Source: Cafeteria roenbergensis
Taxonomy: Eukaryota; Sar; Bigyra; Bicosoecida; Cafeteriaceae
Assembly (NCBI GenBank): GCA_008330645.1
Contig: VLTN01000038.1
Location: 62,001 to 126,000 of the forward strand
Reading direction: 5' to 3'
Length of the DNA: 64,000 bases
Positions 1 through 26,900 of the stretch are shown here, one piece after another. The notes beneath the pieces are model-generated. The model made no database searches. It worked only from the letters and a program-made list of their open reading frames with translations, and was not told where the DNA came from. How positions within the stretch are numbered: position 1 is the stretch's first letter; each line of letters starts with the position of its first letter. The position numbers and the translations under genes were made by a program.

Positions 1-3000
1 ATCGACCAAGTCGTGCGCCCGGAGCCGGAGACCCGCTCCAGTGACCCGGACTCTCACGCGGCCGAAGGCACCCGTGGCGGCGCCCGTCGCCGGCGGCCCT
101 CGATTGGGAAGGATTGCATCGCTTCCCCACGGAGTCAGCTGGGGGTGGTCGCGCGCCTGATTCGTTCTCGCGGCGCCGGGCAGGGCTGGCAGTCGGCCGA
201 CGCGTCATACAGCTCTGCCCATCACTACTCCATCGGCATCAGCGGCGCATCGCTCGAGGCCGCATCGGCAGTCCAGAGCGCGTGGGTCGAGCTGATGCTG
301 CTGGTGGGGGATGTGGCGACGGCGGCGGCCTCCGCGGGCGATGCCGCGCTGACCCACGCGGCGCTGTGGGCAGCAACGCAAGACTTCCAGATGCAGGATG
401 CGGAGTTCCTTCTCCGCACCGGGATCGTGCCGGTCATCGCACACCTCTGCTCCGTGAAGGCGTCAGCTGACAGAGCCGCGGCGATTGCGCACGCCGACGG
501 CTGTCTGGCCACGCCGGACGACGACCCCGCCGGAACCCTCCTCGACATGCCACTGCTCTGGCCAGCTGACACCGTCGAACGGCGCTTGCGGGACGGCTCC
601 CTCTCGGCGCTGGAGGTGGTTGCGCTCATCAAACACGTCGGGCGGGCTATCGAGCGGCACTGCCTGCCCCAGCGCCGCGCCCGCCACATCGCCGCCTATG
701 GCAGCGCGGACTGCAGCGATATTCGTCGCTCGGACTGGTGGCGCTCCCGCGGCCTCTCCTTACCGGCGCATTATTTGGCCGACACGCTCACCACGAGCCA
801 GGTGGCGCAGCTCTACCGCCAGTTCACTTCGATTGCGGGGCCAGCCTTTGCTGAGGCGAGGGCTGGCCCCGGCCCCGCGTACCCCGGGGCTCCGGACGCT
901 GACTTCGCCCTGGGAGGCCTCGGGGCGCCGGCTCTGCCCCTGCCGGCGGCCTACGAACCCTGGTCTGGAAATGGCAAGCGAAACAGCCGTGAAACCGCTG
1001 CGGCCGCGTCGCGATTCAACGCTTCGCCCGGCCTTCACGCCCTCCAACATCCGGACGGCAGAGCCGCTTCGGGTGACGACGACGACGACGATGACGACGG
1101 CGTCACTGCCGGCGCCGCTGACGGCACGGGCCGCGGCCGCCGCCCCCGCCGGCAGAGCCGCTCCCCATCGGTTGCCGCGTCGCCAAGGTGGACGGGCCGG
1201 GGTCAGACCCCGCTCGCAACTCCGCCGTTGTCCGCATCGCTGGGCGTTGCACAGCTGGCCCAAGGTCAGACTGAGCGCGCCGCTGCGAGAAGCGCCGTGT
1301 TCTCGCCGCTGCCGCCAGCCCACGACGGCGGGCCGCTCCTAGCCTCCCCGCTGGCCACGGCGCCCCCTGGCCCTCTCACCGCCACTCCTGGCTCTACCGA
1401 ACGAAGTGGCTCTGCAGCACTTACCGGTGGCGACAGGCGCCCTGGCGCGGTCGGTGGACCAACATCGCCCGGGCGGGCTCCTGCGCCGAGCCCCGCCCGC
1501 GCCCGTGTGCCCGACTCCGAACGCGTCGCGTCGGCGGGCCTTCAGGGGAGTGCGGCACCGCTGGTTGATGGCCGAACAGCCCACGTCACTCGTGTTATGG
1601 GGACGGCCGCCTGGGGAATGTTCCGTATCATTGCTGCAAGGGCGTGCGGGGCGCGGCGCACTCCGCGCGAAACCGCCATGGCACTGCTGGGAAGCGACTT
1701 TGACCCGACTCTCCGTGGCGAAACCGCTGGCGTTGCAAGGGTGGGTGTCATCGCTGACGTCGACGGTGACGTCGAGCAGGGCCAGCTCTACCGAGCGCCA
1801 TTGGGCGGATCGACAGCCGACGGAAGCTGCCGGCCACCGGCTGGCCTGGCTGCTGCAGCATCTGCCGGGGCTCTGCCGGCAGAGCCGTCGCTCGGGGCGT
1901 CGCCGTCGGAAGTGGTGTTTGAAGCCAAAATCCGCCTTGCTCTGCCGGGAACGGCTCTGCCAAGGGCGGCGCTGACAGGCGAGGTGTTGGTCGAGGAGAT
2001 GGCAGCTCGCGACGAGCCTGCTGGCTCTGCCCTGCGGGTCATGAGCGAGTCACTCGCTGCTGCAGAGCTGGCTTGCAGCGTGATGGGCGCTGGGGAGCGA
2101 CTCGGCACTTCCTCCGCCCACAGCTCTGCCGGACGATTCAGCCGCGGCCTCCGCGAGCTCTGCCTCGGAATGGTCCTGGAGGACATTGCAGTTGCGGCCG
2201 CAGCCATCGGCAGAGCCAGGCGGTTCCCTGGACGGTCCGTTGGGCCGACCCATCGCACGGCAGAGCTGGTGGCTGCGCTGGCAGGGCTTCCCGGATCCGC
2301 TGCCCAGAGCTCTGCCGCAGTCGCAGCAGCTGCTTCGTCGATCGAACTTGGCCAGGCAGAGCCGCTGCTCTACCGATCCCTCCTATTCCTGTCTTCGATG
2401 CGGGGCCTCCCTGCCATTGCGGAGTTCGCGTCTAGAAGCGGAGTCATTGCTCTGCTCTGCATCTCACTTCGCGTCGCATCTCCCCGGTGCAAGCGGCTCT
2501 GCCTCCTGCTGCTGGCAGCGGGTCTGCCTCTGGCCGCTCCGGTGCAGGCAGATGCAGCGGTTTCGCGGGCGCTGCGAGTTCCGTTGCACGTGGTACATTC
2601 TGGCTCTGACAGCAGCAGCAGAAGCAGCAGCAGCGGTAGCGGCAGTGGCGGCGGCAGCGGTGCTTTCGATGGACCCGCGACGCTGTCGCTGCTGGAGTCG
2701 CTCTCTGCGGAGCCCGGGTCAGTTGCCGTCGGGTGGTTGCTGTTGATCTGCGGGTCAGCCGGCGCTGTCGGAGTGTCCAGCTCTGCTGGATGCGGTGGCG
2801 TGCCAGCAGCGATCGCGGCATCAGACCGGCTTGCCGACCCACTTCCTGCGGTTTCGGGCATTTTGTATCCGCGTGGGGTTGGAGCCGGCTGGGCGCTGTC
2901 CGTGACAGCTGCTGCCGCCGTGGAGACGGTGCGGAGTTTGTGGAACTCCGCACACGCAGGCCCGGGTGCCGCCAAGGCGGGCACGGAACAGCTGATGGCG

Positions 3001-6000
3001 TCGCTCTCAGCGTCGCTCAGCAACCCCTCCCTGGGCCGGAGCCCCTCCGCAGCCTCCTCGGGGAGCGGGCCGCGAATGGGTCTCGGGGTCACGTCAGCGG
3101 CTGATTGGGCCGACGTCCTGACCAACACTCTCCACCTTGCGGTGGCAGGCGCTGGCTCTACCGGCGGAAACGCATCCGGCCAGCTTGCCGATCCGGTGGA
3201 CGTCGTAAGAGCCGTTGCTCGCGACCAGGCGAGCGCCGGCAGAGCTGCTGCCGCTGCCGCTGCCGCTGGTGGCGGTGCAGCTGGTGTTGGCGGCGGCGGT
3301 GGCGGCGGTGGCGGCGGCGGCCGTGCCGCTGCTGCGGAGGCGGCTGCGGAGGCCAAGGCTTCTGCTGCTGCTGCCAGCGCCGCGCAGCTTGACGGTCTTA
3401 TGGCAGAGCTGATGGCAGCAGGCATCAGCCGGGAAGAGGCGGAGGCGGCGGCCGCTGCCGCGGTGGAGGCCGAGGCGGCGTCGGCGGCAGCAGCGCCAGT
3501 CGCAGCAGCGCCGGCACCAATGTCCACTGCTGATGCCGGCGTGTCAGAGGAGTCAGCTGATCCGGCGTCTCACGATGACGTGGCGTGGCGTGAGGGCATG
3601 CAATCGTCAGAGTCGCTCACTTGGATGAGGGCTGCGTCGCTCGGTCTGGCCACGGGGGCCCTGTCCGTTGCCGGCGGCTTTTCCGAGCCGCTGCGGGTCG
3701 GCGGTTTCGTGGTGACTGCAGAGCAGGTGTCTCAAGCTGGCGGGCTGGCGTCGCTGGGAGACGTCGCCGCGCGGTTTCGCGGCACCGTTGTGCAGGTGTC
3801 GCCCACCCACGATGTGGCGCTGGTTGCATTCCCGGGATCGCCCAAGCCGCGGCAGTGCGCGGTTTCGTCGCTGTTCCCGGTTGACGTCGTGGATCCTTCC
3901 GAGACGCTGGCCAGCCAGCTCATCGTTGATGCGGCTCTGCCACTTCTCCGAGAGTTGCTCGAGTTCGAGACGGCTCTGCCAACCCTGGAGCGTGACCCCG
4001 GCTCGGACAACCCGTCGCGCCCAGCCGAGACGTCGGGCGACGAGTGGTGGGACCCGTCTGACGAGCGGGTGTCCAAGCCCGTCGGCAGCAGGACGGCGCG
4101 CGACCGCGCGGCGGGTGTCGCTCCAAAGGGCAGCGGCAGCGGCAGCGGCAGCGGCAGCGGCAGCAGCGGCTCGGGCGGCGATGGCTCTGCCGGTGAAGTG
4201 TCTCTTCCTGCGATGACGAGGGCTCTGCTTGCAGTGCTGGAGCTGCGCTCCAGCGCAGTCGGCGCCCTGGCCACCTGCTGCTATGTGGACGCTGTTTCGG
4301 CTGCCATCGTGACGGCGGGGCTGGCAGAGCCGCTGGTTCGGCTGGCAGTTTCGCCGGCTCCGCTGCCTCAGACGCTGTCGACGAGGGCGCTGCGGATGCG
4401 TCAGCTGATCACTTCGTCGCTCATTGGCGACGTGTCTTCGGGAGTCCGCATCGGAAACTCCGCGCTCCGCCGCGAAACCGCCGTCTCGACTGCAGTGTCG
4501 GCAAAGCAGCAGCAGCGCCTGTCGATGGGAGCCCAGATCCAGGAACTTTCCGGGAAACCTCTCGACGTGTGCGTCAAGGCCCTTGAAGTGTGCGATGACG
4601 ATGCCGACAGAGCCGTTGAATGGCTCTTCTCAGGGCAGGGCGACGCCTTCGTGCGGGGCGGCGGGATGCAGGACGCTTCGGCGGAAGATTGGGCCGGTGA
4701 CGTGGAGCTGCAGAGCCAGGCGAAGTCGCTGGCGACGTCCTTCGGCCAGCCGCCCAAGCTGGTGCTTCGCGCCTTGCAGATGTTCGAGCGGAACCAAGAT
4801 CGGGCCATGGACTGGCTGCTCACCCACGGGGCGAGACACGTCCCGGGAATGGCAGAGCCGGATGCGGAACTGGGCTCTGCCGAGCCGAGCCGGGAGGGCA
4901 GCTCGGTGTTTGGCCGCGGCCGTCCGACGCTGGCGCAGGTGCTTGCTATGGACCAGGATGGCTCTGCCGGTGACGGTGTTGCGGGCTCTGCGCATGCGTT
5001 GGGCAGGGCGCAGTCGGTTGGCAGCGGCGGGGACGGTGGTCACGATGATGGAGCCGTGATTGACGACTTGGACGTCGGCGAGGCAGAGCGCTGGGATGAC
5101 GGAATGGACGTCGGCCCCATCGTCACGGCTGGCACACGGAGCAACGTGGGCAGGAATGGCCGTCGTGGTCGCGGGGGCAGAGCCGACGACGGCGGTCGCC
5201 AGGCGGCGGCGGAGGCGCTGTGGGCGGCGCTGCAGATGCACGCGGCGGAGGCGGAGGCGGATGCGGAGGCGGAGAGACCCCCGTGGGAACGACGTTCCCA
5301 TGGCAGCGTCGACAGCCACCGCCTGTATGGTGGCGGCAGTGACGGCAGTGACGGCAGTGACGGCAGTGACGGCAGTGACATCAGTGACGGCAGCGATGGC
5401 GGTTCCAGCCATCCGCCAAGCGACGACGATGATGATGATGCGATGCGTAGCAGCAGCAGCAGCGGCCGCAGCCGCCGCAGCGGCGAACGCACCGATCCCA
5501 CGACGCCGCCGCGCGGCCCGTCCGGGCGCTGGCGCGCGGTCGAGCTGCCCCCGCCGTCGCTGCCGCTGCGCCACCGCCCAGGGCTGGTGCCCCCGCGCAC
5601 GACAGTTGGCGCCGCCCGGCCGGCAGAGCCCCCCTCCGGGGACCGTTCCAGGGACCGCTCCAGGGACCGCTCCAGGGACCGCTCCAGGGACCGCTCCAGG
5701 GACCGGGGTGGTGCTGCGGGCGGTCCAGAGAGGGAGGCCGCCGTGTCGGCGCGGATGCATGCTCGTCCAGAAATGGCGCCTTCACAGGCCCCGGAGGCCA
5801 GAGTTGAACTCGGAGTTGGACACAGAGTTTGGCCCAGAGATGACTCCGGAGTTCAGTCGACTGTGTATCGAACCTCGGATTCGCCGCAGCACGACTCGGC
5901 CGCGGCCTATGCCGCTGTGGTGCGCGCCTTTGAGGATCCCCCCAGGCGTCACGAGGGCGCGCCGCGCCTCCGAGCGGCAGAGCCGTCGAATCCGTTTGCG

Positions 6001-9000
6001 GGCCCCTTCAGCCGTTCGACGGCAGGATCAACCCTTCCCCCCAGGCCCGCGGCCCCGCGCGAGGGCTCGGGCCGTGGTGAGGATGGCCCCGGCAGCGGAG
6101 GTCGTTCACGGCGCCGCACATCGTCCCGCGGCCCTCCCAGCGCCCGCGATTCGGCGTCCAACGCTGACGTCGGAAGTCACGCTTCCAACCTGGATGAGTT
6201 CCTTCGTCTTCGAAGCGGGGTCGAAGAGCCGCTGGGACCAGGTGACCATCCCGGGCGCGTCACCTTCCCATCAGGCGACGATCAAGCTGCGCTCCGCGCC
6301 GCCGCGCTGAGTCGGCGATCGGCTGCCCGCGCCCGGCAGCAGCAGCGGCAGCAGCGCGAGCAGCGGCAGCAGCAGCAGCCGCCCGAGCCACGGTGGCCAT
6401 CGGCGCCTGACATGGGACCCTTCGGGGCTTATCGTCCCGATGCCTCCCTCGAAGCTGCTGCAGCTGCTGAGGCTGCTTTTCCAGCTGACGCTGCTGACGC
6501 TGCTGCTGCTGACGCCGCTGCTGCCGCCGCACGCCGGGCCAACCGCTTCGGAGGCCTTGTGGGCAGAGCGACGCGCCTGCATCGCGCGCAGGGGCGGCCT
6601 CTCGTGGTCGATGGCAGCCGAACAGGCGCCGCCGCGGCGGCTGCTCCCGCCACCGCTGGTTTCGTGGGGTCCACCGCGGGCGACAGCTGGGTCGCTCTGG
6701 GCGGCCTCGCCATGCCGGCGGCCGTCGTTGTCGACGACGAGGGCCGCCGCGTCGCCACCGGCGTGGAATCCTTCTTCGAAGGGGCTTCCGGACGACGGGC
6801 GGTTTCGGTTCTGGACGTCGACCGGTGGTGCACATCGCTCGAGCCGGCTTCGCCTTCTCAGGTGACGAATGTGGGCCACGTCTTCGGATCGCCAGTGAGC
6901 GACGCGGAGTCGCTCTTCCACATCCACGCAGCGGTTTCGCACTCGCTCTGCCTTCGCGACGCTCGCGAGGCACTTGCCGGGATGTTGCTGCAGTCTACTC
7001 CGGGCGGTTTCGAGGATGCCATCAGCGCCGAGTCAGTCCTGACGCTTGTGCGACTGGCTGCAGTCACTGACGGCCTCACGGGGCGAGGCCGCGGCCGCTC
7101 CGGCAGCCATGCCAACACCAGGCCCTCAGCCGCGGCCTCAGCGGTCGCTGGTGGCGCCGATGCTGGTGCTGGCGCCGATACCGGCGCTGGCGCTGGCGGC
7201 TTCGCGTCGGCAATGCTGGCAGAGCTTGCCGGGGCGGCGGGAGGCCTGCGCCGAACCCTTCCAGCCGACGCCGCCAGGAGGTCAGCGCGATACGAAACCG
7301 ATATCCCCGATCCTTCCTGGTCGCCAGGCCAGTCGCACCCGATGCTGGAGGAGTACCGGCAAGCCATCGCCGAGGCGGAGGCTAACGCCCTGGGCAGCGG
7401 AGGCGGCGCCGCCCACCACATGGCCCGAGCCGCTCGTGCCCGAGCTGTCCTGGGTGGCTTGGGTGCTGCCACCGGCCACCCTGGCGGGGACTTTGCCGCT
7501 GCTGCCGCTGCTGCCGCTGGCGCTGGCGCTGGCGATGCCGCCGCTGGCGCTGCTGCTGCCGCAGCGGTCGGTTCTGGCGCTGGCTCTGCAGGAAGTGGCT
7601 CTGCCGATGCCGTGGATTTGCTGCCAGCGGGCGAAGGCCTGCGGCGGCTGGCAGGCTTGCGGTTTCGCCTGCCGCGTGGCGGCACCACGATGTGCGCGAT
7701 GCAGGAGGTGGTGCGGCGTCAGCTGAACCGCACCAAGACCGGATCCGGCTCTGCCGGTCCAACGGGCCACTTCTCGCAGCTCTGCCTGCGGCACGCAACG
7801 GCCGACGTCCTCCGGGCAACAGAGCCGTCGACCACAGCTGAGAGGCGCGTCCGGCAGAGCCTCCACCCGCACGTGTCGCGCGCCGCGGTGACCGACTTCG
7901 TTTCAGTGCCGGGCACGCGAGCGCTGTGGGTGACGTTCGACCCGCGGTGCTGCCTGCCGCGCGGGGCGGAGCTGGTCTTCCTGGGAGAGGACGAGCGGAC
8001 CGTCATCGCGCGGTTTCGCGGCGGCGAGATGTCCAGCGGGGCTCGGGTTCCGGCGTGGCGACCGCTGGTCATTCACGGCTCAAAGGTCCGTTACCGGTTC
8101 ATCTGCCGCTGCGAGGCCGAGGAGGTCTGTTGGGGCTACCGGTTTCACGTGCAGCGGGTGGAGGGCCTGCACTGGCGCGGCGAGGCGGAGGCAGCTGACA
8201 AGGGGTCCCTCGAATTCGGTTGCTGGCTGCTCGAGCTCATTCTGAGAGACGCTCCGAGAGTGGTCGAGTCAGGTGAAGTTCACTCCTCCCAGACCTTCAA
8301 CGGACTGGTAGGCTACCTGAGAGCCCGCGGCGCTCCCTACAAGCACCGCATCGTGGCTCTGCTCACGCGCCTGCTCCGGTCGCCGGCTCTGCGCAACGCG
8401 CCGGAGCCGGTGCAGACACGGGCCCTGTCCTCGCTGGAGGGGCCCGTGATGCAGCGTTGCATGGCCCTGCTCAACGGAGCCGGCGGCGACCGGCGGCGAC
8501 GCTTCCTCGGCGACGACGACGACGGCGGGCGGGGGGGCGTGCTGCCTCCGCGGCTGATGCGGCTGGTAGAGCTGCTCACAACTGTCCGGGCGGTAGAGCT
8601 GGACTCGGCCACGCGAGACAGCGCGGCCGGTGGCTCTGCCGCCGCTGCCGGGTCCGCCGCCGCTGCCGGGTCCGCCGCCGCTGCTGCCGGGTCCGCCGCC
8701 GCTGCTGCCGGCTCTGGCGAGGTGTGCCCCGTCGGATCGGTGCCCGATCCTTCCAGGCCAACGGATCTCTTGCTGCCGCTGCCCTGCGTGCGGCGCAGCG
8801 ACGTCGTCGACGAAACCGCAGTCGCGACGTGCCCGCTGATGCCTCTCATCGTGGACGTGCATCAGCTGACGCTGGCCATCCACGGCCAGAGCCGCCTCCC
8901 GGACGCGTTCGTCGCGCGCTGCGTGATTGACGCGGGACTTGCCAGTGACGCCGAGGCGTGCACGGCAGAGCTGCTCAGCAGAGCCGCGCGGTCGCTCGCC

Positions 9001-10620
9001 ACGTGGGCCGCCGAGGACGACGAGCAGCTGGCCGCCTGGATGGTGGTCATCACGTCTCCGGCGCGTCGCGCTCGCATCAGAGAGTTCCAGGAGTGTGAGC
9101 GCGACGGCCGGCGGCCCCCCTCGGGCCCCAGGCCGGGAGACGGCGGCGCTGGCAGCGCCACTTCGCCGGCAGAGCTCCCCACCCATCTGCTCGAACTCAA
9201 CGACAAGGGCGACGGTCTCGCATTCGGCCGCATCGCCGGCAGAGCCGTCGAGGAGCTCCGGCTCCGCGCGGCTCTGCTGCAGGCGCTGAACCGCCGGCTG
9301 AACCGGGTGCTGCCTCTGCTGGACCTTGTGGGCGCCGAGGACGCCTCCAGCGTCGGGTTCCGCCTCCGTTCCGTGTCTCACTGCATATTCGCGGACGCGA
9401 AGCACACGGTGCTGACGGCAGCTCTGCGCGGGAGCGAAGTGGGCCGCGAGGGCATGGGGTCCATCGACTTCGACAACGGCGCGGCGTTTCAATCCGCCGA
9501 GGTGGCGCGCCGCGACGCGAGTAAGGGTGCCATCGGGCAGTACCGGGGGGCGTTCGTGCAGCTGTTCGAGCAGCTCGCGCGGCACCCTGCCTCGCAGTTC
9601 CGCGTGCGACTCAACGGCCACGGCTGTCTCTTCAAGGTGGACATGGTGGGGGAGGCAGGCATCGACCAGGGGGGCCTGTTCCGCGACGTGTTCTCCAGAT
9701 CCGTTGAGGACGCCTTCGCCCCGCACTTTGAGTTCTTCGCCGCGACGCCCAACTCGCGCCGCGGCACTGGCGCCAGTCTCGACAAGGCGCTGCCGCACCC
9801 GGCGGCGGCGGCGTCGCCGGCTGGTCTGGCCATGTTCGAGTTCCTCGGGCGGATCCTTGGCGCAACGCTCCGCCACCGGCTCTACCAGCCGTTTGACATG
9901 GCGTCGCTGGTGTGGAAGCAGCTGGCCGGAGAAACGTTGTGCCGGGGGGACCTGTCGTCCGTCGATCTGCGCGTCGCGAAGCACCTCGACGCAGTGGCGG
10001 AAGCAGCATCGCCCGAGGAGTTCGCCTCGCTGGGCGAAGTGACCTACTCCGTGGAAGGGCTTCTCGGCTCTGCAATCGAGCTCTACCCTGGAGGCGCGGC
10101 CGTGCCGGTGCCGTTCGAGGAGCGCGTTGCCTACGCCGAGGCGGCGGCGGAGGCGAGGTTCCGCGAGTTTGCGCCGGCGGTTTCGGCCATCCGTCGCGGG
10201 CTGGAGTCGGTGGTTCCGGCCCGCGCCCTCCGCCTGTTCACGTGGCGGGAGCTGGAGCAGTCGGCGTGCGGCGACCCGCTGGTGGACGTGGCGCTGCTGC
10301 GCGCCAACACCACGTACAGCGGCGGATACGAGGAGGGACACCCGGTCATCGAGCGCTTCTGGCGCGTGTTCGGAGCGATGAGCAACTCCGACCGGGGCAA
10401 GATCGTTCGCTTCGCGTGGGGGCGCAGCCGGCTCCCGCGGGCAGGGGACTTCCGCACCAAGTTCAAGCTGTCCCGCGGCCCGCCGCCCGACCACCTGCCC
10501 CTGGCGCACGTATGCTTCTTTCACATGGAGCTGCCCGAGTACCCCTCGGACGACGTCATGCGGCGCATGCTTGCCACGGCAGCGGCGCACGGCACCGGCG
10601 GCGAGTTCCTCATGGCCTGA
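1..10620 (+). CDS. Giant HECT-type E3 ubiquitin ligase, 5'-partial
   Basis: The frame is open from base 1 to a TGA at 10618-10620 with no convincing start, so the N-terminus lies outside the window and over 3,500 residues are inside. Counting from base 13, two UBA-like modules lie at about 1508-1545 and 1570-1608 (each ending in a DRAxxWL pattern). A beta-rich segment at about 2636-2720 (starts LWVTFDPRC) resembles a module of large HECT ligases such as HECTD4. The HECT domain fills about 3200-3535, with FKVDMVGEAGIDQGGLF at its N-lobe and the catalytic cysteine in AHVCFF (codon 10513-10515), then LPEY. HECT ligases take ubiquitin onto this cysteine before passing it to substrate. Long disordered tracts (poly-Ala/Gly, GSD, DRSR, acidic runs) separate the domains. 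No intron is evident. The substrate cannot be inferred. Confidence 0.93.
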   Translation: MDQVVRPEPETRSSDPDSHAAEGTRGGARRRRPSIGKDCIASPRSQLGVVARLIRSRGAGQGWQSADASYSSAHHYSIGISGASLEAASAVQSAWVELMLLVGDVATAAASAGDAALTHAALWAATQDFQMQDAEFLLRTGIVPVIAHLCSVKASADRAAAIAHADGCLATPDDDPAGTLLDMPLLWPADTVERRLRDGSLSALEVVALIKHVGRAIERHCLPQRRARHIAAYGSADCSDIRRSDWWRSRGLSLPAHYLADTLTTSQVAQLYRQFTSIAGPAFAEARAGPGPAYPGAPDADFALGGLGAPALPLPAAYEPWSGNGKRNSRETAAAASRFNASPGLHALQHPDGRAASGDDDDDDDDGVTAGAADGTGRGRRPRRQSRSPSVAASPRWTGRGQTPLATPPLSASLGVAQLAQGQTERAAARSAVFSPLPPAHDGGPLLASPLATAPPGPLTATPGSTERSGSAALTGGDRRPGAVGGPTSPGRAPAPSPARARVPDSERVASAGLQGSAAPLVDGRTAHVTRVMGTAAWGMFRIIAARACGARRTPRETAMALLGSDFDPTLRGETAGVARVGVIADVDGDVEQGQLYRAPLGGSTADGSCRPPAGLAAAASAGALPAEPSLGASPSEVVFEAKIRLALPGTALPRAALTGEVLVEEMAARDEPAGSALRVMSESLAAAELACSVMGAGERLGTSSAHSSAGRFSRGLRELCLGMVLEDIAVAAAAIGRARRFPGRSVGPTHRTAELVAALAGLPGSAAQSSAAVAAAASSIELGQAEPLLYRSLLFLSSMRGLPAIAEFASRSGVIALLCISLRVASPRCKRLCLLLLAAGLPLAAPVQADAAVSRALRVPLHVVHSGSDSSSRSSSSGSGSGGGSGAFDGPATLSLLESLSAEPGSVAVGWLLLICGSAGAVGVSSSAGCGGVPAAIAASDRLADPLPAVSGILYPRGVGAGWALSVTAAAAVETVRSLWNSAHAGPGAAKAGTEQLMASLSASLSNPSLGRSPSAASSGSGPRMGLGVTSAADWADVLTNTLHLAVAGAGSTGGNASGQLADPVDVVRAVARDQASAGRAAAAAAAAGGGAAGVGGGGGGGGGGGRAAAAEAAAEAKASAAAASAAQLDGLMAELMAAGISREEAEAAAAAAVEAEAASAAAAPVAAAPAPMSTADAGVSEESADPASHDDVAWREGMQSSESLTWMRAASLGLATGALSVAGGFSEPLRVGGFVVTAEQVSQAGGLASLGDVAARFRGTVVQVSPTHDVALVAFPGSPKPRQCAVSSLFPVDVVDPSETLASQLIVDAALPLLRELLEFETALPTLERDPGSDNPSRPAETSGDEWWDPSDERVSKPVGSRTARDRAAGVAPKGSGSGSGSGSGSSGSGGDGSAGEVSLPAMTRALLAVLELRSSAVGALATCCYVDAVSAAIVTAGLAEPLVRLAVSPAPLPQTLSTRALRMRQLITSSLIGDVSSGVRIGNSALRRETAVSTAVSAKQQQRLSMGAQIQELSGKPLDVCVKALEVCDDDADRAVEWLFSGQGDAFVRGGGMQDASAEDWAGDVELQSQAKSLATSFGQPPKLVLRALQMFERNQDRAMDWLLTHGARHVPGMAEPDAELGSAEPSREGSSVFGRGRPTLAQVLAMDQDGSAGDGVAGSAHALGRAQSVGSGGDGGHDDGAVIDDLDVGEAERWDDGMDVGPIVTAGTRSNVGRNGRRGRGGRADDGGRQAAAEALWAALQMHAAEAEADAEAERPPWERRSHGSVDSHRLYGGGSDGSDGSDGSDGSDISDGSDGGSSHPPSDDDDDDAMRSSSSSGRSRRSGERTDPTTPPRGPSGRWRAVELPPPSLPLRHRPGLVPPRTTVGAARPAEPPSGDRSRDRSRDRSRDRSRDRSRDRGGAAGGPEREAAVSARMHARPEMAPSQAPEARVELGVGHRVWPRDDSGVQSTVYRTSDSPQHDSAAAYAAVVRAFEDPPRRHEGAPRLRAAEPSNPFAGPFSRSTAGSTLPPRPAAPREGSGRGEDGPGSGGRSRRRTSSRGPPSARDSASNADVGSHASNLDEFLRLRSGVEEPLGPGDHPGRVTFPSGDDQAALRAAALSRRSAARARQQQRQQREQRQQQQPPEPRWPSAPDMGPFGAYRPDASLEAAAAAEAAFPADAADAAAADAAAAAARRANRFGGLVGRATRLHRAQGRPLVVDGSRTGAAAAAAPATAGFVGSTAGDSWVALGGLAMPAAVVVDDEGRRVATGVESFFEGASGRRAVSVLDVDRWCTSLEPASPSQVTNVGHVFGSPVSDAESLFHIHAAVSHSLCLRDAREALAGMLLQSTPGGFEDAISAESVLTLVRLAAVTDGLTGRGRGRSGSHANTRPSAAASAVAGGADAGAGADTGAGAGGFASAMLAELAGAAGGLRRTLPADAARRSARYETDIPDPSWSPGQSHPMLEEYRQAIAEAEANALGSGGGAAHHMARAARARAVLGGLGAATGHPGGDFAAAAAAAAGAGAGDAAAGAAAAAAVGSGAGSAGSGSADAVDLLPAGEGLRRLAGLRFRLPRGGTTMCAMQEVVRRQLNRTKTGSGSAGPTGHFSQLCLRHATADVLRATEPSTTAERRVRQSLHPHVSRAAVTDFVSVPGTRALWVTFDPRCCLPRGAELVFLGEDERTVIARFRGGEMSSGARVPAWRPLVIHGSKVRYRFICRCEAEEVCWGYRFHVQRVEGLHWRGEAEAADKGSLEFGCWLLELILRDAPRVVESGEVHSSQTFNGLVGYLRARGAPYKHRIVALLTRLLRSPALRNAPEPVQTRALSSLEGPVMQRCMALLNGAGGDRRRRFLGDDDDGGRGGVLPPRLMRLVELLTTVRAVELDSATRDSAAGGSAAAAGSAAAAGSAAAAAGSAAAAAGSGEVCPVGSVPDPSRPTDLLLPLPCVRRSDVVDETAVATCPLMPLIVDVHQLTLAIHGQSRLPDAFVARCVIDAGLASDAEACTAELLSRAARSLATWAAEDDEQLAAWMVVITSPARRARIREFQECERDGRRPPSGPRPGDGGAGSATSPAELPTHLLELNDKGDGLAFGRIAGRAVEELRLRAALLQALNRRLNRVLPLLDLVGAEDASSVGFRLRSVSHCIFADAKHTVLTAALRGSEVGREGMGSIDFDNGAAFQSAEVARRDASKGAIGQYRGAFVQLFEQLARHPASQFRVRLNGHGCLFKVDMVGEAGIDQGGLFRDVFSRSVEDAFAPHFEFFAATPNSRRGTGASLDKALPHPAAAASPAGLAMFEFLGRILGATLRHRLYQPFDMASLVWKQLAGETLCRGDLSSVDLRVAKHLDAVAEAASPEEFASLGEVTYSVEGLLGSAIELYPGGAAVPVPFEERVAYAEAAAEARFREFAPAVSAIRRGLESVVPARALRLFTWRELEQSACGDPLVDVALLRANTTYSGGYEEGHPVIERFWRVFGAMSNSDRGKIVRFAWGRSRLPRAGDFRTKFKLSRGPPPDHLPLAHVCFFHMELPEYPSDDVMRRMLATAAAHGTGGEFLMA
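5335..5397 (+). repeat. 9-bp tandem repeat (GSD codons)
   Basis: The unit GGCAGTGAC recurs about five times and then degenerates, encoding a Gly-Ser-Asp run in the disordered part of the HECT ligase. The repeat is in frame, so copy-number change would not break the gene. Confidence 0.9.
5641..5703 (+). repeat. 12-bp tandem repeat (DRSR codons)
   Basis: Five near-perfect copies of GACCGCTCCAGG encode Asp-Arg-Ser-Arg repeats in the HECT ligase. The first copy has one T for C difference. Confidence 0.95.
8632..8713 (+). repeat. 15/18-bp Ala-Gly-Ser tandem repeat
   Basis: Units of the form GCCGCCGCTGCCGGGTCC, some with an extra GCT, encode Ala-rich AAAGS repeats. They lie between the beta-rich segment and the HECT domain, within the coding frame. 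Confidence 0.88.
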
Positions 10621-17057: not shown

Positions 17058-20000
17058 TCAGATCCTTCCACTCGCCATTCGCCTGCGACGGGACGCCTCA
17101 CGGGCACTCGCGATGGAAGGGTCCAGCTCTGCCCAGGCCGGCGCGGCCGCCTCCCCGGCACGTCCTCGTGCCGACGCCAGCGCGTCGGCGGGCTCTGCCG
17201 GTGCTGACCTCGCCGGGACCCCCCTGCCCTGCGCGGCTCTGCGATCCTGATCTTGAGCCCTTCCACCTCGGCTCTGCTCGGCCACTTCTCCCGGCTCTGC
17301 CAGCCAGTCGAGGTCGTCTCGGCTGGCAAGCTCCAGGAGCGACGCCCCCAGCGACAGATCCACTGGCTCTGCCGCCACACCGTGCAAGGCGGTTCCGCCA
17401 GAGAGACCGTCTGGTCTGCCGCGCACTGACGCGTCGGGGGTCAGCGGCGAGCGAAGTCCCGATCCGGGCAGAGCCGCAGATCCTTCCTGCCCAGGCCTCC
17501 GCCCCCTGGTGCCGACAGGCGGCGACGGAGGCGGTGGCGGTTCTGCCGGGCTCTGCCGCAGGCGCGCGGAGGCTGGCCCCGTTCCACCCGCAGCTGTCGC
17601 GTTCGCGGTTGCAGTTGCAGTTGCAGTTTCCGCTGGAAGGCGCCGTGCCGCCGCCCGAGCACGGCTTTGTTGAGCGGCTGGTGCCGCGGCTCGCTGCGCC
17701 CTGGGGTAACCGCCGCCGCCGTCACCACCGATGCCGCCGCCGCCGCCACCACTGCCGCCGCCACTGACACCGCCACTGACGCCGCCGCCGTCAATGCCGT
17801 CGCGATGGCTGCGGTCGCTGGCTCCGGCTGCGGCTGCGGCTGCGGCGCGGTGTTGGTCGTGCGCACGCTGACCCTGGGAGCGGCGAGGCGTTTCCCCGCC
17901 GAAACCGCCTGTACCGCGCCGACCAGCGTCGCTGCCTGCCTCCAGGAGTCCGACAACGCTGTCGCCAGTCAAGTCGGCATCAACTCCGGGCAGAGCCGAC
18001 ACCCCTCCCCCGGCTCTGCCGGCCCGACGCGCGCCTGCAGCCATCGAGGCGGCAACGCGCACCTGCGTCAGCTCCCGCTCAAGCAGAGCCGCCGTGCGTT
18101 GACGGGCGCGCGCGTCCCGCCAAGCGTCCTCCGCTTGCCGCCGGAGCGACGCGCACTCAGCCGCCATGTGGCCCCGCGCGGTTTCGGCTGCCTGCGCTGC
18201 TGCGCGTGCCTGGGAGGCGTCGTGACGGGCCGCTTCGCAGTCGCGACGAAGAGAGTCGGCGCGGGCTTCGGCAGAAAGTTTGGCCGACTCCGCGGCGTCG
18301 ACTGCTGCTCGAGCCGACGCCTCGGCTTGCTCTACCGAAGTGCGTATCCGCAGCTCTGCCTCCTGCAGAGCTGCCTCTGCTCGAAGTTTGCCACGCCGCT
18401 CTGACCGAGCGACGTGCCTCGCCTGCTCTACCGCGGCACGAAGTGACCCCACCTCGCGCTCTGCAGCTGCAGCGGTTTCGCGAGCCTGGGACGCGTCTGC
18501 GACGGCAGACTCCGCTGCTGCCTCCAGAGCGGTGACTCGGCGGGCCGCCCGCTCGCTCTCATGGGTCACACTTCGTTTCGCCTCGACTGCCGACGTCGCC
18601 TCCCGCTCTGCCGCAGCGGCGCGCCGCTCAGCAGCCACGGCGCGTTGCTCCGCCTCCTTGGCCGTGCGCAGCGCTCGGGCCGCCTCCGCCTCAGCCGACG
18701 CAGCGCGAGCAGTGGCCGCCCTTGCTGCAGCGGTTTCGCGTTCAGCGGCCAAGGTGGCCTCCTTCCGTCGAAGCTCTGCGGCCTCAACTGCTCTGCGGCT
18801 CTGCAGCTCTGCCGACCCCACTTCAGCACGCGCTCTTGCCGACGTCTCTCGAAGCTCCGCCTCCGCCTCCGCAGCCCGCCGTCTCGATGAGGCCACGTCA
18901 TCCAGAAGCACGTCGCGTTGCCGCGTTGCCTCAACTGCAACCCGACCGGCAGCCAAAAGCCACCCGCGAAACCGCGCAGCCGAAACCGCAACGTCTCTCA
19001 ACGGCACGGGGAGTGGTGGTCCCGCAGCGCCAAGCGCTGCTCTGCCGCGAGTTTGCGATTGACCAAGGCCTGTGCGATCGACGAAACGTGACGAAGCCCC
19101 AAGGTGCGGCGAAGTCCTCCCGAAGTCAGTCATCGCGAGTGACCCCGAGGTCGCTCCCAGACCCATCACGCCCCCATCACCTTCGCCCTCCGCACCACCA
19201 GCATCACCGCTGCCACCGCCAGCCACCGCCGACCAGCCTTGCAAGGCAGCGTCAACGAGCGCAGCCGCCGCTGCCTCCGCCTCCGCCTCCGCCTCCGCCG
19301 CGTCAGCTGCACCGCCTCCAAAGTCGAACGCATCGCCACCACCACTGCCACCGCCACTGCCACCGCCACCACCGATGCCGTCGCTCTCACCGCCGCCACC
19401 GCGGTCTCTCAGGCCGGCTCTGCCGCCGCCCCCGAGTACCGAGAGCTCCCGTCTCGCTCGTTCCCGCATCGCAGACAACGACGATGAAACTGCTGAAACC
19501 GCCGCCTCCCATCGCGCTGCGGTTTCGCCGCTTGCCGCTTTTGCTGCACGAGTCGCTCGCTTTGCTGCGGCAGCGAGCGACTCCGCTTCGTCGCGCCTCA
19601 GCGCCGCCGCATCGGCGCGCGCCGACTCCGCGTCTGCGCGCGAAACCGCCTGCGCAACTGCCCGCTCTGCTTCCGAGGCCCGGGTGCGCGCCTCTGCGGC
19701 GTCGGCCTCTGCCCGCCGACGTCCTTCCAGAGCCCGCGAAACCGCCTTCTCAGCCTCTTGGAGCTCATGTCGCATCGAAGACACTTGCGAAACAGCGGCG
19801 TCTCGTTCCGCCGAAATCTCCTCCAAGGCCCGAGACATGCGCGACGCTCTTGAAGCAGCCTGCGAAACCGCGGTTTCGCGCTCTTCAAGAGTGGTCGCTT
19901 GCCTAGCCACCAGTCTCGACAGCCGGTCCATCTGGGTCTGGAGCTGGTCACAAGCGCGTCTGGAGTCACTCAGCATTTCCCGAAGCTTCACTGCCTCCGT

Positions 20001-21722
20001 CTCAGCCGCATCAGCGCGCCGCTCCAGAGCGGAGTTTCGAATCTCCGCACCGCCGTGGTCAGCTGGTGTCCCAGCTGTCACATCCGCGCCGACCTGAGAC
20101 CAGTCGCGACGTTGTGGCTCTGCCACTTCGCTGCCGTGGCCAGCCCCCCTGCCGCCGCGGTAAGCGCCGGCACCGTCCTCCACGTCGGTTCCCAGGAGCA
20201 GGTGCTCGCCAGCGCTCACCTCCTCGTCGTCGTCGTCGTCGTCGTCGTCTTCGAAGCCAGCACCGGCTGACGGGCCGCCCTCCGCGGCGGTTTCGCGGCC
20301 GGGGGTCGCTTGCTCGAGCTCGTCGGCTCTACGATCCTCCGCGGAGTCCGTGCCGACGTCGGCGTCGTCGTGGACGCCGTAACCGCCGCCTCCATCGGCA
20401 TCGGCATACTCCATGGCGGTTTCACCGGACACGAACGCACCGTGGTGATGGCCGAATGACCCCGACGACGCGTCCGACCCGTGCTTGCCATGCTGGTGCT
20501 GTTGGTGGTGCTGGTGGTGTTGGTGCTGGTGGTGGTGATGGCCCTGCTGCTGTTGGTGCTGGTGGTGGGCGTGGCTGGCGTGATCCCGCTGGAGGGGAGC
20601 CGCGCCAGCGCCCGTGCCGTCGTGGGCTTGCGATTGACCAAGGCTTGCGGGGAGTGGCCGGGGGGCAGTGCGCTGTCCAACGCGCGCTCTCCCGGTGGCT
20701 CTGCCACGCTCGACCGGGGGCGAGCTGCGGTTTTGGCTTGACACCGTGGGTCTGGCGTGGCCTGGCGAAACCGCACGAAGTCGTCTGCCTGCCGTCGAGG
20801 GCGGAGTGGAGGCGGAGCCCGGCTGACTGGCCTGTGATGGGGTCTGACGCCCTGACGATCGGGCCAAGGAGTCTCTGGAGAAGCGCCCGGCAAGCCGGGT
20901 TGGCGAAGTGGACCTCCCCGCTCTGCCGGCAGAGCCGAGGTGTCCCGAGGCGTGCGGACTGTGTCCGCTGCCGGGGCGGCGAGCTGCGGGCGACGATAGC
21001 GACGGCGACGGCGGAGACGGCGACGACGACGGCGACGCCGCAGGCGCCCGCTGGCCGGCTGGCGCTGGCGCTGGCGACCATCGATCGTCGCGCCCGCCGG
21101 TGCGCGCCTCAGCAAACCGGACTGAGCGGCGCCCATCCAGCGCGCCCGCGGCGGCACTGGAATGGGCGCCGCGGCTTGAAGGGCCGTCGCGGCGCGAGTG
21201 CGGCAGGTCGGCCGCGGCTGGCACGGCGTCGCTGCGGACCCCGTCGTGGCCAACTGCCCGCCCGGCGGACGCGCGAGCTGTGCGCCTCGTGGGCTCCGCC
21301 TCGGCCGGCCCTCGGTCTCTCGTCTGGTACCCGTGCCGGTCGCTGTAGGCCTGCAAGGGCGGGGAGTCCGATCCCGAGGCCGCGCTGCGGCGCGGCGGCG
21401 CGGGCGATGACGAATGCCGGCCGGCAGAGCGCAGGCTTGCGCGGGACTCGTCAAACGCCCGCTCCAGGGGCCCAACGACGGAGCTGCTCAGCTGGGAGAT
21501 GGACAGCGCAGGGGTGGCCGCCGTTGCCGGGGAGCGGGCGGAACGGCGGGCGGCCGCGCCCCCGGCAGCGGATCGTCGACCGTTGGCTGGTGGTGGTGGT
21601 GTTGCGGCGGCCACCGAGCTCTGGTCGAGCCAGTCAAGCGCAGCGTCCTCGACCGCGCGAGCAAACGACAGCGCGGTGGAGTCTTCGCCGCGGGGGGCGG
21701 TCCTGCCGCGGCGGGAGGCCAT
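17058..21722 (-). CDS. Large coiled-coil protein, probable cytoskeletal or centrosomal scaffold
   Basis: The frame is open from 22112, but the stretch before the ATG at 21722 reads like flanking sequence and the next codons (MASRRGRTAPRGED) look like a true N-terminus, so I chose 21722 (about 1,554 residues). The N-terminal third is disordered, with a His/Gln-rich tract (about 20480-20575) and an acidic Asp run (about 20220-20250). A long coiled coil of Ala/Glu/Arg heptads follows, broken by a Gly-rich linker, then more coiled coil (about 18,000-19,050). The C-terminal region is disordered. Short acidic Trp motifs occur near both ends (DWLDQ, DWLAE). No family is recognised. The gene is very dense in the words GCGGTTTCGC and GGCTCTGCC. 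Confidence 0.75.
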   Translation of the reverse strand: MASRRGRTAPRGEDSTALSFARAVEDAALDWLDQSSVAAATPPPPANGRRSAAGGAAARRSARSPATAATPALSISQLSSSVVGPLERAFDESRASLRSAGRHSSSPAPPRRSAASGSDSPPLQAYSDRHGYQTRDRGPAEAEPTRRTARASAGRAVGHDGVRSDAVPAAADLPHSRRDGPSSRGAHSSAAAGALDGRRSVRFAEARTGGRDDRWSPAPAPAGQRAPAASPSSSPSPPSPSLSSPAARRPGSGHSPHASGHLGSAGRAGRSTSPTRLAGRFSRDSLARSSGRQTPSQASQPGSASTPPSTAGRRLRAVSPGHARPTVSSQNRSSPPVERGRATGRARVGQRTAPRPLPASLGQSQAHDGTGAGAAPLQRDHASHAHHQHQQQQGHHHHQHQHHQHHQQHQHGKHGSDASSGSFGHHHGAFVSGETAMEYADADGGGGYGVHDDADVGTDSAEDRRADELEQATPGRETAAEGGPSAGAGFEDDDDDDDDEEVSAGEHLLLGTDVEDGAGAYRGGRGAGHGSEVAEPQRRDWSQVGADVTAGTPADHGGAEIRNSALERRADAAETEAVKLREMLSDSRRACDQLQTQMDRLSRLVARQATTLEERETAVSQAASRASRMSRALEEISAERDAAVSQVSSMRHELQEAEKAVSRALEGRRRAEADAAEARTRASEAERAVAQAVSRADAESARADAAALRRDEAESLAAAAKRATRAAKAASGETAARWEAAVSAVSSSLSAMRERARRELSVLGGGGRAGLRDRGGGGESDGIGGGGGSGGGSGGGDAFDFGGGAADAAEAEAEAEAAAAALVDAALQGWSAVAGGGSGDAGGAEGEGDGGVMGLGATSGSLAMTDFGRTSPHLGASSRFVDRTGLGQSQTRGRAALGAAGPPLPVPLRDVAVSAARFRGWLLAAGRVAVEATRQRDVLLDDVASSRRRAAEAEAELRETSARARAEVGSAELQSRRAVEAAELRRKEATLAAERETAAARAATARAASAEAEAARALRTAKEAEQRAVAAERRAAAAEREATSAVEAKRSVTHESERAARRVTALEAAAESAVADASQARETAAAAEREVGSLRAAVEQARHVARSERRGKLRAEAALQEAELRIRTSVEQAEASARAAVDAAESAKLSAEARADSLRRDCEAARHDASQARAAAQAAETARGHMAAECASLRRQAEDAWRDARARQRTAALLERELTQVRVAASMAAGARRAGRAGGGVSALPGVDADLTGDSVVGLLEAGSDAGRRGTGGFGGETPRRSQGQRAHDQHRAAAAAAAGASDRSHRDGIDGGGVSGGVSGGGSGGGGGGIGGDGGGGYPRAQRAAAPAAQQSRARAAARRLPAETATATATANATAAGGTGPASARLRQSPAEPPPPPSPPVGTRGRRPGQEGSAALPGSGLRSPLTPDASVRGRPDGLSGGTALHGVAAEPVDLSLGASLLELASRDDLDWLAEPGEVAEQSRGGRAQDQDRRAAQGRGVPARSAPAEPADALASARGRAGEAAAPAWAELDPSIASAREASRRRRMASGRI
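19862..19879. repeat. Perfect 18-bp palindrome made of two facing words
   Basis: GCGAAACCGCGGTTTCGC consists of the first word and its reverse complement sharing the central GC. It lies in the coding region of the coiled-coil gene. Confidence 0.95.
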
Positions 21723-22196
21723 GGCGGCGCGCGCACGGAGGCCGCGTGCGCTGCGACTGCTTCTGCAATCGGCCGGCGACGGATTTCGTCCAGCGGCCGG
21801 CAGAGCCATCGCTTGTGCTTGTGGGGCAGAGCACTCCCGGACCTCCAGTGACGCGTCGCGCGTCGCATGCCACGCACGGCAGCTCGCGGCGACGGCCCGC
21901 AAGCGCGCCGGCCGCCCCTGCCACACCCAGCCCTCGCGGCTGTTGCCGCGGCCCGTGGAGGCCGGCTTGAAGCCCAGCCTCGTTGCGACAGCGAACCGGC
22001 CGAAAGCGACTCGCGCCTCGGCCGCAAACGGCCTCGTGCTCGGCACGGTCATCGTCATTGTCGTCAGCAAGCTCGCGAAACACAGCACCAGTAGCAACAC
22101 CCGCGCAAGCACCAGCGTTTGCGCTCAGAAGTCCTCCTGCCAACGCGAAAACGGGCCGCCGCACACTCCGCCAGCTCAGCCTCCCCTTCGGAGCCG

Positions 22197-23906: not shown

Positions 23907-26900
23907 TCATGAGTCCGCGTTGCGATGCGCCAGGTCTTTGACGGCGGAAAGAATGGCCGCAGTCTGGCGGCGCATCGCATCGAGCTCTGCCAAGACCGAC
24001 ATCTGCTGCTCTGCTGATGCCACTTCGGCTGCTCCCATGCGTCGCTCCAGGTACACAAGGTGCCTCGCCAGGTCGACCGAGCTGGCAGAGCCAGTCATCG
24101 CACCATCACCAGCCGGAGTCACTCGATCAGCCGCAAGCGGCACGTGTGCGTGGGGCCACATGTGCCGCACGGGAACGACGCGCGCCGGCGGCGGGGGGGC
24201 CTGGGGGGCCTGTTGCTGGCGGCGATGTTGGTCCTCGTCCTCGGCAGGGGCCTCGGGGCAGACTGAGGCCCCTGCTGGGTCCGCAGCCTGGTGGTGGTGC
24301 CGGTTGTGGTGGTGCCGGTGGTGGTCGGGGCGAGGGCTGCGGCCGCGCTCGACCGAGCAAGCGGCCTCCTCCGCCGTGGTGGCGAGCCGTCGGGCTGCCG
24401 ACTCCGCCTCCGCCTCCGCCTCCGCATCCGCATCCGCATCCGCATCCGCATCCGCATCCGCATCCGCATCCGCGTCAGCACCGGCTTCGGCTTCCGCGTT
24501 GCACCGCTCAGGCGACGCCGTAGAGGCGTCATGTGTCCGTTGGGGGGAGCCTTCCCGGGAGTGGCGGTCATCGTCGGTGCCCTCCTGCACGGCTGAGAGG
24601 CCCGTGCCGGCATGTGTCCGGTGCAGAGCCGCTTCGACGTCGCCGGCGTCAATCACCTCGGCGTCGCCGGTGGTGTCGGCGCTGTCAGCGCTGCCGCTGC
24701 CAGTGACTCCGCCTCGGCAGTGGCCGCGTCCCCGGTGGATCCTTCCAGCGGAGCGGCGATCAGAGCTTGCCGACGTCCCCTTGGCGGCGGTTGCTGTTGC
24801 CGCCGCAGCGTCAGTTGCGGCCTCGGCGCCAGCAGCAGCCCCGTCGGACCCGCTGACCGCCGTTGAAAACGTCGCCGATACAACATCCGTTTCTGGTGCA
24901 GCAGTCACCGCCCCATCGTGGTCGGTTCCGAAGCCGGTCACCGGCTGGTCAAGCGAGTCAAGTGTGGCAGCGCGAGCCGCGCTGCCCGCGACCGCTGCAG
25001 TTGCAGTCGCTTGTCCGCTGATTGTGGCCCGACGGGGAGGAAGGTGTCTCTGGCGAAACCGCTCGTCCCGCCAGAAGTGGGTTTGCGCCTCGCGGTGGGC
25101 TCGTGACTCGGCGGCAACGCCCAGCGCAGCAGTCGTGGCCCCGTCTTCCGACCCGGCGAAACCGCGGACAAATGGTTGCGCCGGCAGGGAATAGCTCTGC
25201 CGGGCGACGGCGCCAACGCTGGAAGGCCGTTGGAGTCTGTCTCTGCTGCGCCGGCGGATGTTTCCCCCACCACCGGCTCTTCGTTCCGCCGATCCGCGCG
25301 CCTCGCGGTTGCTTGTGCCGGAGTCAGACCCGTCCCCGCGCCGACCACTCTCCTCGCTGCGACCACGGCGCCGACCACCCACCGCGCCGCTGCCGCCGCC
25401 GCCGCCGCCGCGACGGTGCTCATGCCTGCCGCCGTGCCTTCCCGCGAAACCGCGCCGACGTCCATCACGGCCATCGCCGTGTCGGTCCGCGCGGTCGTCG
25501 GGCTCGTCGGTGTCGTACGCGGCGCCGGCGCCGTCCCGCTGGCTCCGGAGGCGGCGTGTTGCGGCTCTGCCTCCCTCGTCCAGCTCGGCGCTCTCCACGT
25601 CGTCGTCGTAGACGCCGTGGTGGCGGCGTCCCCTCGAATGGTGGTCATGGTGGTGGTGGTGGTCGTAGTGGTGGTGCCTGTGGCTGTGGTCCGGCGAATA
25701 GAACGACCGACCACGGCCGTCGAGCTGCTGCCCAGTGGGCCCGAAACCAGAACGCGCAGACAAGAAATGATGGCTGTGTGACGATCCAATGATTCCCCCG
25801 TGATGGGCGTGATGACCGCCAAGCATGAGGGCCCCTCTAGGCGTTGACGTCAGGAGGGGCCCTGTGCGGGGCATCTCTCCCATGGCTTGCGCTGCCACCT
25901 TTGCTCTGTTGAGTCGCTGTTCGAGAGTCAGACGCCGGTTTTCGGGCTGGGGTCCGTGGAAGGATTCCTTGAAGAGCTCTGCCGAAGAGGTAGAGCCACC
26001 TGTGAAGAATGCCAAGCCTCGGCGCATGGACCCTCCGGGGTGCAGCGCCAGCGACGCGCCGGCACCAGAAGCAGCAGCGCCTGCAGCGCCAGCGCCAGCG
26101 CCACCGCCAGAAGCAGCGGCTCCAGAGGTGGGAGGGGCTCCCGGCGCCGAGACAGGGTGGGCGTGGGTCACTCCGGGCGCCGCGGCAGCGGTGTTGGCGC
26201 CGGCTGTGGCGCCCGTTGTGCTGGCTACAGTGGTCATCGACAGGCGGGGGCTGTGTGCGGCGCGGCGGACACCGCCGTCCCCGGCCACGCCGCGGCTGCG
26301 GACGCTGCCGCCACCCGCACCGGCACCCATCCCCGCTGTGACAGCGTCAGTGTCAGTGTCAGCGCCAGCGCCAGCGCCAGCGCCAGCGTCAGAAACGGCC
26401 GGCGCCGGCTGAGACGTCGCCGCCGTCGCTGGGGCTGCCTTCCCGCTGGGCTGGGGCCTGGACGGGTCCGTCAGGGCTCCAGCCGACGTCGTCGTGGATA
26501 CGGTGGCTTCGGTCGCGCCGCGGGGCCCTCCGGCGGCCCCAGTCACCACGGCATCACGTGCTGATGACCCGCGAGCTGTTTCGGCAGGGAAGCGGAACAC
26601 GCGACCATCACTCCCCGGGGGGGACCGGGGGGCCTGTCCGGGGGCCTCTTTGCCGTCGGCGTCGGATGCACGAGGGCCCGACGCAGCTGCGCGCAGCTGG
26701 CCCATGGTGGGCGAAACCGCTCGCTTTTGATCCAAGTCAGGCGGCGCGGTTTCGCGATGATTCGCCCCGAATCCGGGACTGCTGCCCGTGCCCGTGGTGG
26801 TGGCAGTGGTCGTGGTCGCCGTGGCGGTGTGGCGCCGCCTGTGGCCGGTGCCAGCCGCGGGCCCAGCGAGGGGCAGCTGGCGGTGCCGGCTGCCAGACAT

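Follow-up and report, generated by a model that had tools for sequence, protein, structure and literature searches.

The coding DNA of Cafeteria roenbergensis carries several unrelated short words of 8-10 bases that are strongly enriched, indifferent to reading frame and orientation, and sharp in consensus; in a HECT domain, they arose by substitution and not by insertion. These words are putative recognition sites on double-stranded DNA for several binding proteins distributed over gene bodies, a reading that we put forward tentatively, from the sequence itself.

The stretch analysed (the window) comprises 64,000 nucleotides, positions 62001-126000 of contig C38. Its features are listed in Table 1, where the names HECT, ion channel, and Nic96 derive from Pfam matches. 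Two stretches of the window, 34479-45543 and 11343-13343, are word-poor, in part because few words are expected there. Within the former, the adjoining open reading frames (ORFs) 34479-36809 and 38054-40924 both have HATPase_c matches, the second also with a response-regulator domain, and both are word-poor.

Table 1. Word-bearing and contrasting features of the window (window positions; values with a slash are observed/expected)
Feature	Position	Strand	Details
HECT-type ubiquitin ligase ORF, word-rich	13..10620	+	GTG at 13, first ATG at 295; Pfam HECT 1.7e-55; 16 cores A (CGAAACCG), 25 GGCAGAGCC
HECT domain (895 bp), 1 word A and 3 words B	9706..10600	+	4/4 in gap-free columns, HECTD3 alignment
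Word A core (ETA)	1668..1675	+	
Word A core	1719..1726	+	
Word A core (AVS)	2558..2565	-	10-mer from 2557
Word A core	2849..2856	-	
Word A core (GGF)	3702..3709	-	
Word A core (RFR)	3772..3779	-	10-mer from 3771
Word A core	3860..3867	-	
Word A core	4473..4480	+	
Word A core	6800..6807	-	
Word A core	6932..6939	-	
Word A core	7005..7012	-	
Word A core without following C	7293..7300	+	CGAAACCGA
Word A core	7660..7667	-	
Word A core	8011..8018	-	
Word A core	8811..8818	+	
Word A core within HECT domain (AVS)	10178..10185	-	
Word-rich ORF, no Pfam match	17058..22112	-	core A 13/0.72; GGCAGAGCC 12/0.88
Two overlapping words A in opposite orientation	19862..19879	.	18-bp palindrome GCGAAACCGCGGTTTCGC
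Ion-channel ORF (Ion_trans, cNMP_binding)	23907..29045	-	word-rich outside the channel domains, which contain no word in 1308 bp
Word-poor ORF stretch (HATPase_c, response regulator)	34479..45543	.	contrast in same window
Densest ORF, no Pfam match	47092..54453	-	core A 30/1.83; GGCAGAGCC 12/0.65
ORF with moderate words	55995..61928	+	core A 3/0.38; GGCAGAGCC 4/0.63
Nic96/Nup93-like ORF, runs past window end	62269..63999	-	core A 5/0.14; GGCAGAGCC 6/0.28; words within conserved domain too

The word vocabulary and its distribution

The first-pass annotation had described one 10-bp word, here word A, repeated through positions 1-10620. The repetition is real and larger than first claimed. Within these positions, the hexamer GAAACC/GGTTTC occurs 20 times. 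The 8-bp core, CGAAACCG/CGGTTTCG, was found 16 times in the HECT ORF and 78 times on both strands of the window, and the 10-mer GCGAAACCGC 8 and 49 times (both strands), respectively. The readings reported for individual copies (Ala-Val-Ser at 2557, Arg-Phe-Arg at 3771, Gly-Gly-Phe at 3701, and Glu-Thr-Ala at 1667) are correct, and the proposal that the word belongs to the DNA rather than to a peptide motif is borne out. In the HECT ORF alone, the 9-mer CGAAACCGC occupies four of the six frame/orientation classes, and the 8-mer fills all six across 23 word-rich C38 ORFs. Codon-preserving shuffles of the HECT ORF yielded a mean of 0.96 cores (maximum 4 in 300 shuffles), and a stricter shuffle that also keeps the next-base context yielded 1.55 (maximum 7 in 1000), compared to the 16 observed. 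Nor is the enrichment confined to the window: GCGAAACCGC occurs 2499 times in the 36.3 Mb genome, compared to 249 for the reversed control, and the window is about 11 times denser in this 10-mer than the genome mean. The annotation's likening of the word to highly iterated ones, such as HIP1, can be upheld, whereas the label of palindrome does not apply to word A (GCGAAACCGC). Word A also survives as a real word, but not as the single one, being one among several unrelated words; it is not even the commonest of its kind in the HECT ORF, where GGCAGAGCC was observed 25 times (1.65 expected). Among the roles suggested for word A, protein binding in gene bodies is possible, and is the one that we prefer.

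Greedy searches of C38, with Markov and codon-shuffle expectations as the baseline, agreed on the same short list of words, from which plain repeats (CAG runs, CCGCCG and TTGCAG hexamers) were excluded. The main words are A (VYGAAACCGC), B (GYAGAGCY), C (GGAAGGATC), and D (RTCAGCTGAY). Family A comprises CGAAACCGC and its variant TGAAACCGC, and family B comprises GGCAGAGCC with GGTAGAGC and GGCAGAGCT; further words are F/G (TGAGMGACG and GAGYGACKC), H (TGCGGAGTTC), and K (GGTCTGACCC). Only word D is palindromic, and GCGAAACCGC and GGCAGAGCC are not. Across the organism's own genome (36,303,456 bases in 167 contigs), word B as CGGCAGAGCC occurs 6415 times, compared to 367 for its reverse; the corresponding counts are 925 and 44 for C, and 653 and 48 for D. 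Word G is weak (2796 versus 1307 reversed), and H and K are barely enriched (96 versus 80, and 175 versus 142). Words A-D are, in short, genome-wide, and H and K are not. On C38, which represents 0.9% of the genome, lie 11 of the 96 copies of H and at least 13 of the 175 copies of K, a concentration inflated by the choice of both words for their frequency on this contig. A further candidate, TTGCAGTTG, was dropped as a dispersed word, with 36 of its 48 occurrences in one frame and in 6-bp runs. Runs of TTGCAGTTG at 6-bp steps are found in several C38 ORFs (for example, at C38:160890-160902 and 166042-166054) and represent a coding hexamer repeat.

The enrichment was also observed in ORFs chosen without regard to words. 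In 39 such ORFs of at least 600 amino acids, CGAAACCGC occurred 122 times, compared to 13.9 under the context-keeping null, and reversed A, B, and C remained at chance in the same ORFs (3, 17, and 0 observed versus 2.8, 15.5, and 0.1). The 23 rich and 16 poor ORFs were separated by their density of words A-D, and fold values for A-D in the rich set are therefore inflated. For 45 unselected C38 ORFs, observed and expected counts were 153 and 10.3 for A, 344 and 42.7 for B, 32 and 0.9 for C, and 31 and 3.9 for D. Enrichment was lower but real in 19 ORFs of other contigs, taken from nine 10-kb samples, some of them chosen for words (A, 13/1.6; B, 38/9.8), with none worth naming for C (1/0.2) or D (0/0.5). 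The 39-ORF sets omit a minisatellite ORF outside the window, C38:185623-189792, which consists of a repeat of about 57 bp (ACAAGGGAACC, 53 times) and contains none of the words A-D.

Word density differs strongly between the ORFs of C38, the rich ones in the window being the HECT, ion-channel, and Nic96/Nup93-like ORFs, together with 17058-22112 and 47092-54453. Six word families have correlated densities over 67 C38 ORFs (rho 0.34-0.66), in part because long genuine ORFs are set beside short ones that are doubtful. Within the 62-217 kb zone, with ORFs as a stand-in for genes, fold values inside and outside ORFs were 45 and 8 for A, 12 and 5 for B, and 3.1 and 0.7 for F; word D showed no coding preference (13.6 versus 11.2), and word C had 28 sites in ORFs and 0 outside. 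Strictly ORF-free DNA amounts to only 2.7 kb, too little to judge. Word A is scarcer near ORF ends, with 2 sites in the first tenth and 8 in the last, compared to 28 in the fifth.

Regional clustering of the words is clear for C38 and less so elsewhere. Words C and D co-cluster by region (Pearson 0.47-0.55, matched in 0 of 5000 circular shifts, with the lengths of C3, C4, and C6 set from the last listed place). Rank correlations are weak (C-D, 0.16, p 0.06 and 0.18; A-C, 0.13-0.16, p 0.33 and 0.41), so that the C-D co-clustering rests mainly on C5:620-880 kb, a dense cluster of both words that is probably a further word-rich domain. An apparent chromosome-scale strand bias after C1:160 kb, seen among the matches listed for CGGCAGAGCC, was an artefact of listing. 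A direct duplication with an offset of about 14.3 kb, nearly devoid of word A, occupies C38 at about 230-260 kb. Among five ORFs sampled at C38 229-265 kb, the single Pfam match was to a C2HC zinc finger; the ORF at C38:261872-264415 contains three such fingers, 8 words B, and no word A.

Orientation, consensus, and spacing

In word-rich ORFs, words A, B, and C fill all six frame/orientation classes evenly, and word D appears in four, namely those without an in-frame stop codon. In every one of the six frame classes, word B exceeds local codon-order shuffles by 15 to 25 fold. After codon correction, sense and antisense enrichments were 18.0 and 17.5 fold for A, 9.9 and 9.6 for B, and 32.6 and 34.1 for C, and the T variant of A, TGAAACCGC, gave 13.4 and 11.9. 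Minor words are less neutral (GGCAGAGCT, 12.5 sense and 7.5 antisense; CGAAGTGA, 13.6 and 5.0). Genome-wide, the totals on the two strands are equal for A, B, and C, which are also neutral relative to genes.

The consensus is sharp. GCGAAACCGC was observed 81 times with 2.9 expected, and its 24 one-base neighbours at positions 3-10 sum to 30, with 27.8 expected; the changes tolerated, in the same numbering, are A or C at position 1 and T at position 2. For GGCAGAGC (285 observed, 27.9 expected), the 21 non-tolerated neighbours total 260 versus 311 expected, and the tolerated changes are A or T at position 1 and T at position 3. Tolerance is position-specific, with C/T at one site and "not T" at another. 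Neighbours of word C show a mild excess (23 observed, 15.0 expected), and word A shows a small excess at a few single variants, such as CGAAACCGT (6 versus 1.1). The words have the sharp consensus, the position-specific tolerance, and the freedom of orientation of protein-DNA recognition sites. The spacing of word A revealed no period, including no nucleosome-like one, and its gaps appear Poisson (CV 0.99, 124 gaps). Pair lags are short of expectation at 5-8 bp (10 versus 19.5) and exceed it at 9-12 bp (35 versus 19.4), as expected if words are adjacent and non-overlapping.

Proposed binding sites and competing explanations

In the explanation that we favour, several sequence-specific DNA-binding proteins would read the words over gene bodies, with a strength that differs between genes and between chromosome stretches. 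Each site would be born by point substitution and then held by a selection-like force, with point mutation and this force in equilibrium at a scaled strength of about 2 to 4 per site. Taking the scaled coefficient as the logarithm of the fold value, the enrichment of about 20 to 70 fold over composition in word-rich ORFs corresponds to about 3 to 4, an upper value because these ORFs were chosen by word density, and the 8 to 36 fold of unselected C38 ORFs to about 2 to 3.6. The words would write amino acids wherever the protein tolerates change, and the outcome of binding might be a chromatin, gene-body, or pairing mark. The protein readers, selection on their binding as the force, and the effect of that binding are inferred; we prefer binding in view of the several unrelated words, the favouring of ORFs, and the position-specific tolerance. 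One point against this reading is that long genes carry 1 to 5 words per kb over their whole length, which is high for regulatory sites.

Selection on binding and site-wise biased conversion each match the pattern. Functionless molecular drive, in which word-bearing alleles are favoured during gene conversion or repair, much as transformation favours uptake sequences, and point mutation is combined with biased transmission, is a serious but doubtful competitor. Under drive at individual sites, words would be just as blind to frame, neutral in orientation, and sharp in consensus, and would overwrite amino acids too. However, each of the several unrelated words would need a drive of its own, and pure drive should not favour coding DNA, yet A, B, and F (though not D) are higher in ORFs.

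An extension of the binding explanation, which we consider unlikely, is a chromosome-address code in coding DNA, made up of about eight words, with A-D genome-wide and others contig-restricted (TGCGGAGTTC, GGTCTGACCC). A family of DNA-binding proteins would use it to mark, pair, or regulate stretches, dictating amino acids in the process.

Insertion of tiny mobile or templated 9-bp units, which would keep the frame and then spread, appears improbable, although the cores of A, B, C, and G are 9 bp long. In an alignment with HECTD3, the four words of the HECT domain (read as LYQ, GSA, ELY, and AVS) all occupy columns free of gaps, indicating that the words of this one conserved domain arose by substitution; the Nic96 stretch had no homologue in the structure library searched. 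Target-site-like repeats were absent from the flanks of 117 CGAAACCGC sites. At 191 GGCAGAGCC sites, longer flank repeats were few (3-5 sites versus 0.1-0.8), in line with local tandem repeats. A neutrally decaying burst of copies should leave one-step neighbours in numbers similar to the words themselves, and this halo is missing for A and B. The gap-free columns, the lack of a one-mismatch excess for the two main words, and the unduplicated flanks of CGAAACCGC also weigh against the first-pass suggestion that the words are remains of tiny mobile words. In the word-rich ORFs, the 11 peptides that A and B words encode occur 715 times, compared to 401 times in shuffled proteins; 363 of the 715 are spelled by words, and outside words the count is 352, versus 401 expected. 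A peptide excess that approximates the number of words implies that the words bring their own peptides and do not settle on ready-made ones, which insertion also predicts. The words are not restricted to linkers, as seen in the Nic96 stretch, with 1 A, 8 B, and 1 C in 564 bp.

A HIP1-like by-product of DNA methylation and mismatch repair is still less probable. The overall likeness, short iterated words running through coding DNA, is in its favour, as are the two CpGs of word A and the fact that the change this word chiefly tolerates replaces the C of a CpG by T. Words B and C, however, lack CpG, and an exon-by-exon search of the organism's own genome for the C5 DNA methylase family (PF00145) gave no match; a search of this kind can overlook a gene that is split or diverged, and it gave matches in 10 of 14 control genomes. 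A C5-methylation role thus lacks enzyme support, and the HIP1 analogy is weakened as a mechanism. Photo_RC and the chlorophyll a/b binding family likewise had no match in the own genome, and the organism is most likely a heterotroph.

Selection on an mRNA hairpin or splicing element is very improbable. Each of the two main words can be written as a stem of 3 bp and a loop of 3-4 bases (GCG-AAAC-CGC and GGC-AGA-GCC). Sense and antisense enrichment are nevertheless equal, although the loops then differ, and TGAAACCGC is as enriched in antisense, where its wobble pair is broken. Twelve alternative stems with the AAAC loop gave 0 or 1 occurrence each, indicating that the feature being maintained is not an RNA hairpin. 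With neither sense-strand bias nor stem covariation, the mRNA hairpin and splicing-enhancer candidates were rejected. Small inverted repeats, with the words masked, showed no general excess by eye; stems of 3 bp with 3- and 4-base loops numbered 4600 and 4642, inside the range of other loop lengths (4362-4773). That ordinary codon usage, composition, or an assembly artefact produces the pattern has a negligible chance: the genome is about 70% GC and repeat-rich, as stated in PMC6972860, but codon- and context-preserving shuffles, reversed-word controls, and neighbour words are all near chance, and codon bias (low GC3) was rejected as the cause of A, whose enrichment stays between 9.7 and 17.5 fold across the six GC3 bins.

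Relation to known iterated words

Highly iterated words, including Chi, uptake sequences, and HIP1, are known from prokaryotes. The DNA uptake sequences (DUS/USS) of Neisseria and Pasteurellaceae are 9-12 bp long, lie in coding DNA in both orientations, and arise by substitution. The Cafeteria words are similarly 9-12 bp long and about equal in both orientations, with an exact core and degenerate flanks. However, DUS consist of one word per genome and are tied to transformation, whereas Cafeteria has at least four genome-wide words plus contig-restricted ones, and we know of no DNA-uptake transformation pathway in this protist. Chi is over-represented in coding DNA, orientation-dependent, and read by RecBCD; the Cafeteria words share its character as a short DNA-level word enriched in coding DNA, but are orientation-neutral relative to genes. 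Among eukaryotes, pairing-centre motifs of C. elegans are read by the zinc-finger proteins ZIM/HIM-8, and MSL recognition elements mark the fly X. These are short words that mark particular chromosomes through readout of double-stranded DNA, as may be the case for the Cafeteria words, but they are clustered or mainly non-coding, whereas the Cafeteria words run through the coding DNA of long genes.

HIP1 (GCGATCGC) is a cyanobacterial iterated word, named alongside Chi sites in PMC4390886. It likewise is a short exact word occurring through coding DNA far above expectation, and its cause is unsettled. HIP1 is a single bacterial palindrome, tied to GATC/CGATCG methyltransferases (PMC4390886), whereas the Cafeteria words are several, mostly non-palindromic, of different sequence, located in a eukaryotic nucleus, and uneven along chromosomes. 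A literature search, including PMC6972860, PMC8547959, and PMC4390886, brought up no account of words of this kind for the organism or for a eukaryotic nucleus, most subscription papers falling outside the coverage.

The genomes of four strains of C. roenbergensis (now burkhardae) have been published (PMC6972860), and with them a multi-word system in nuclear genes would make the old question of why iterated words exist testable. Such a system would mean that DNA-level signals can overlie the protein code at large scale and can set the amino-acid sequence in free regions.
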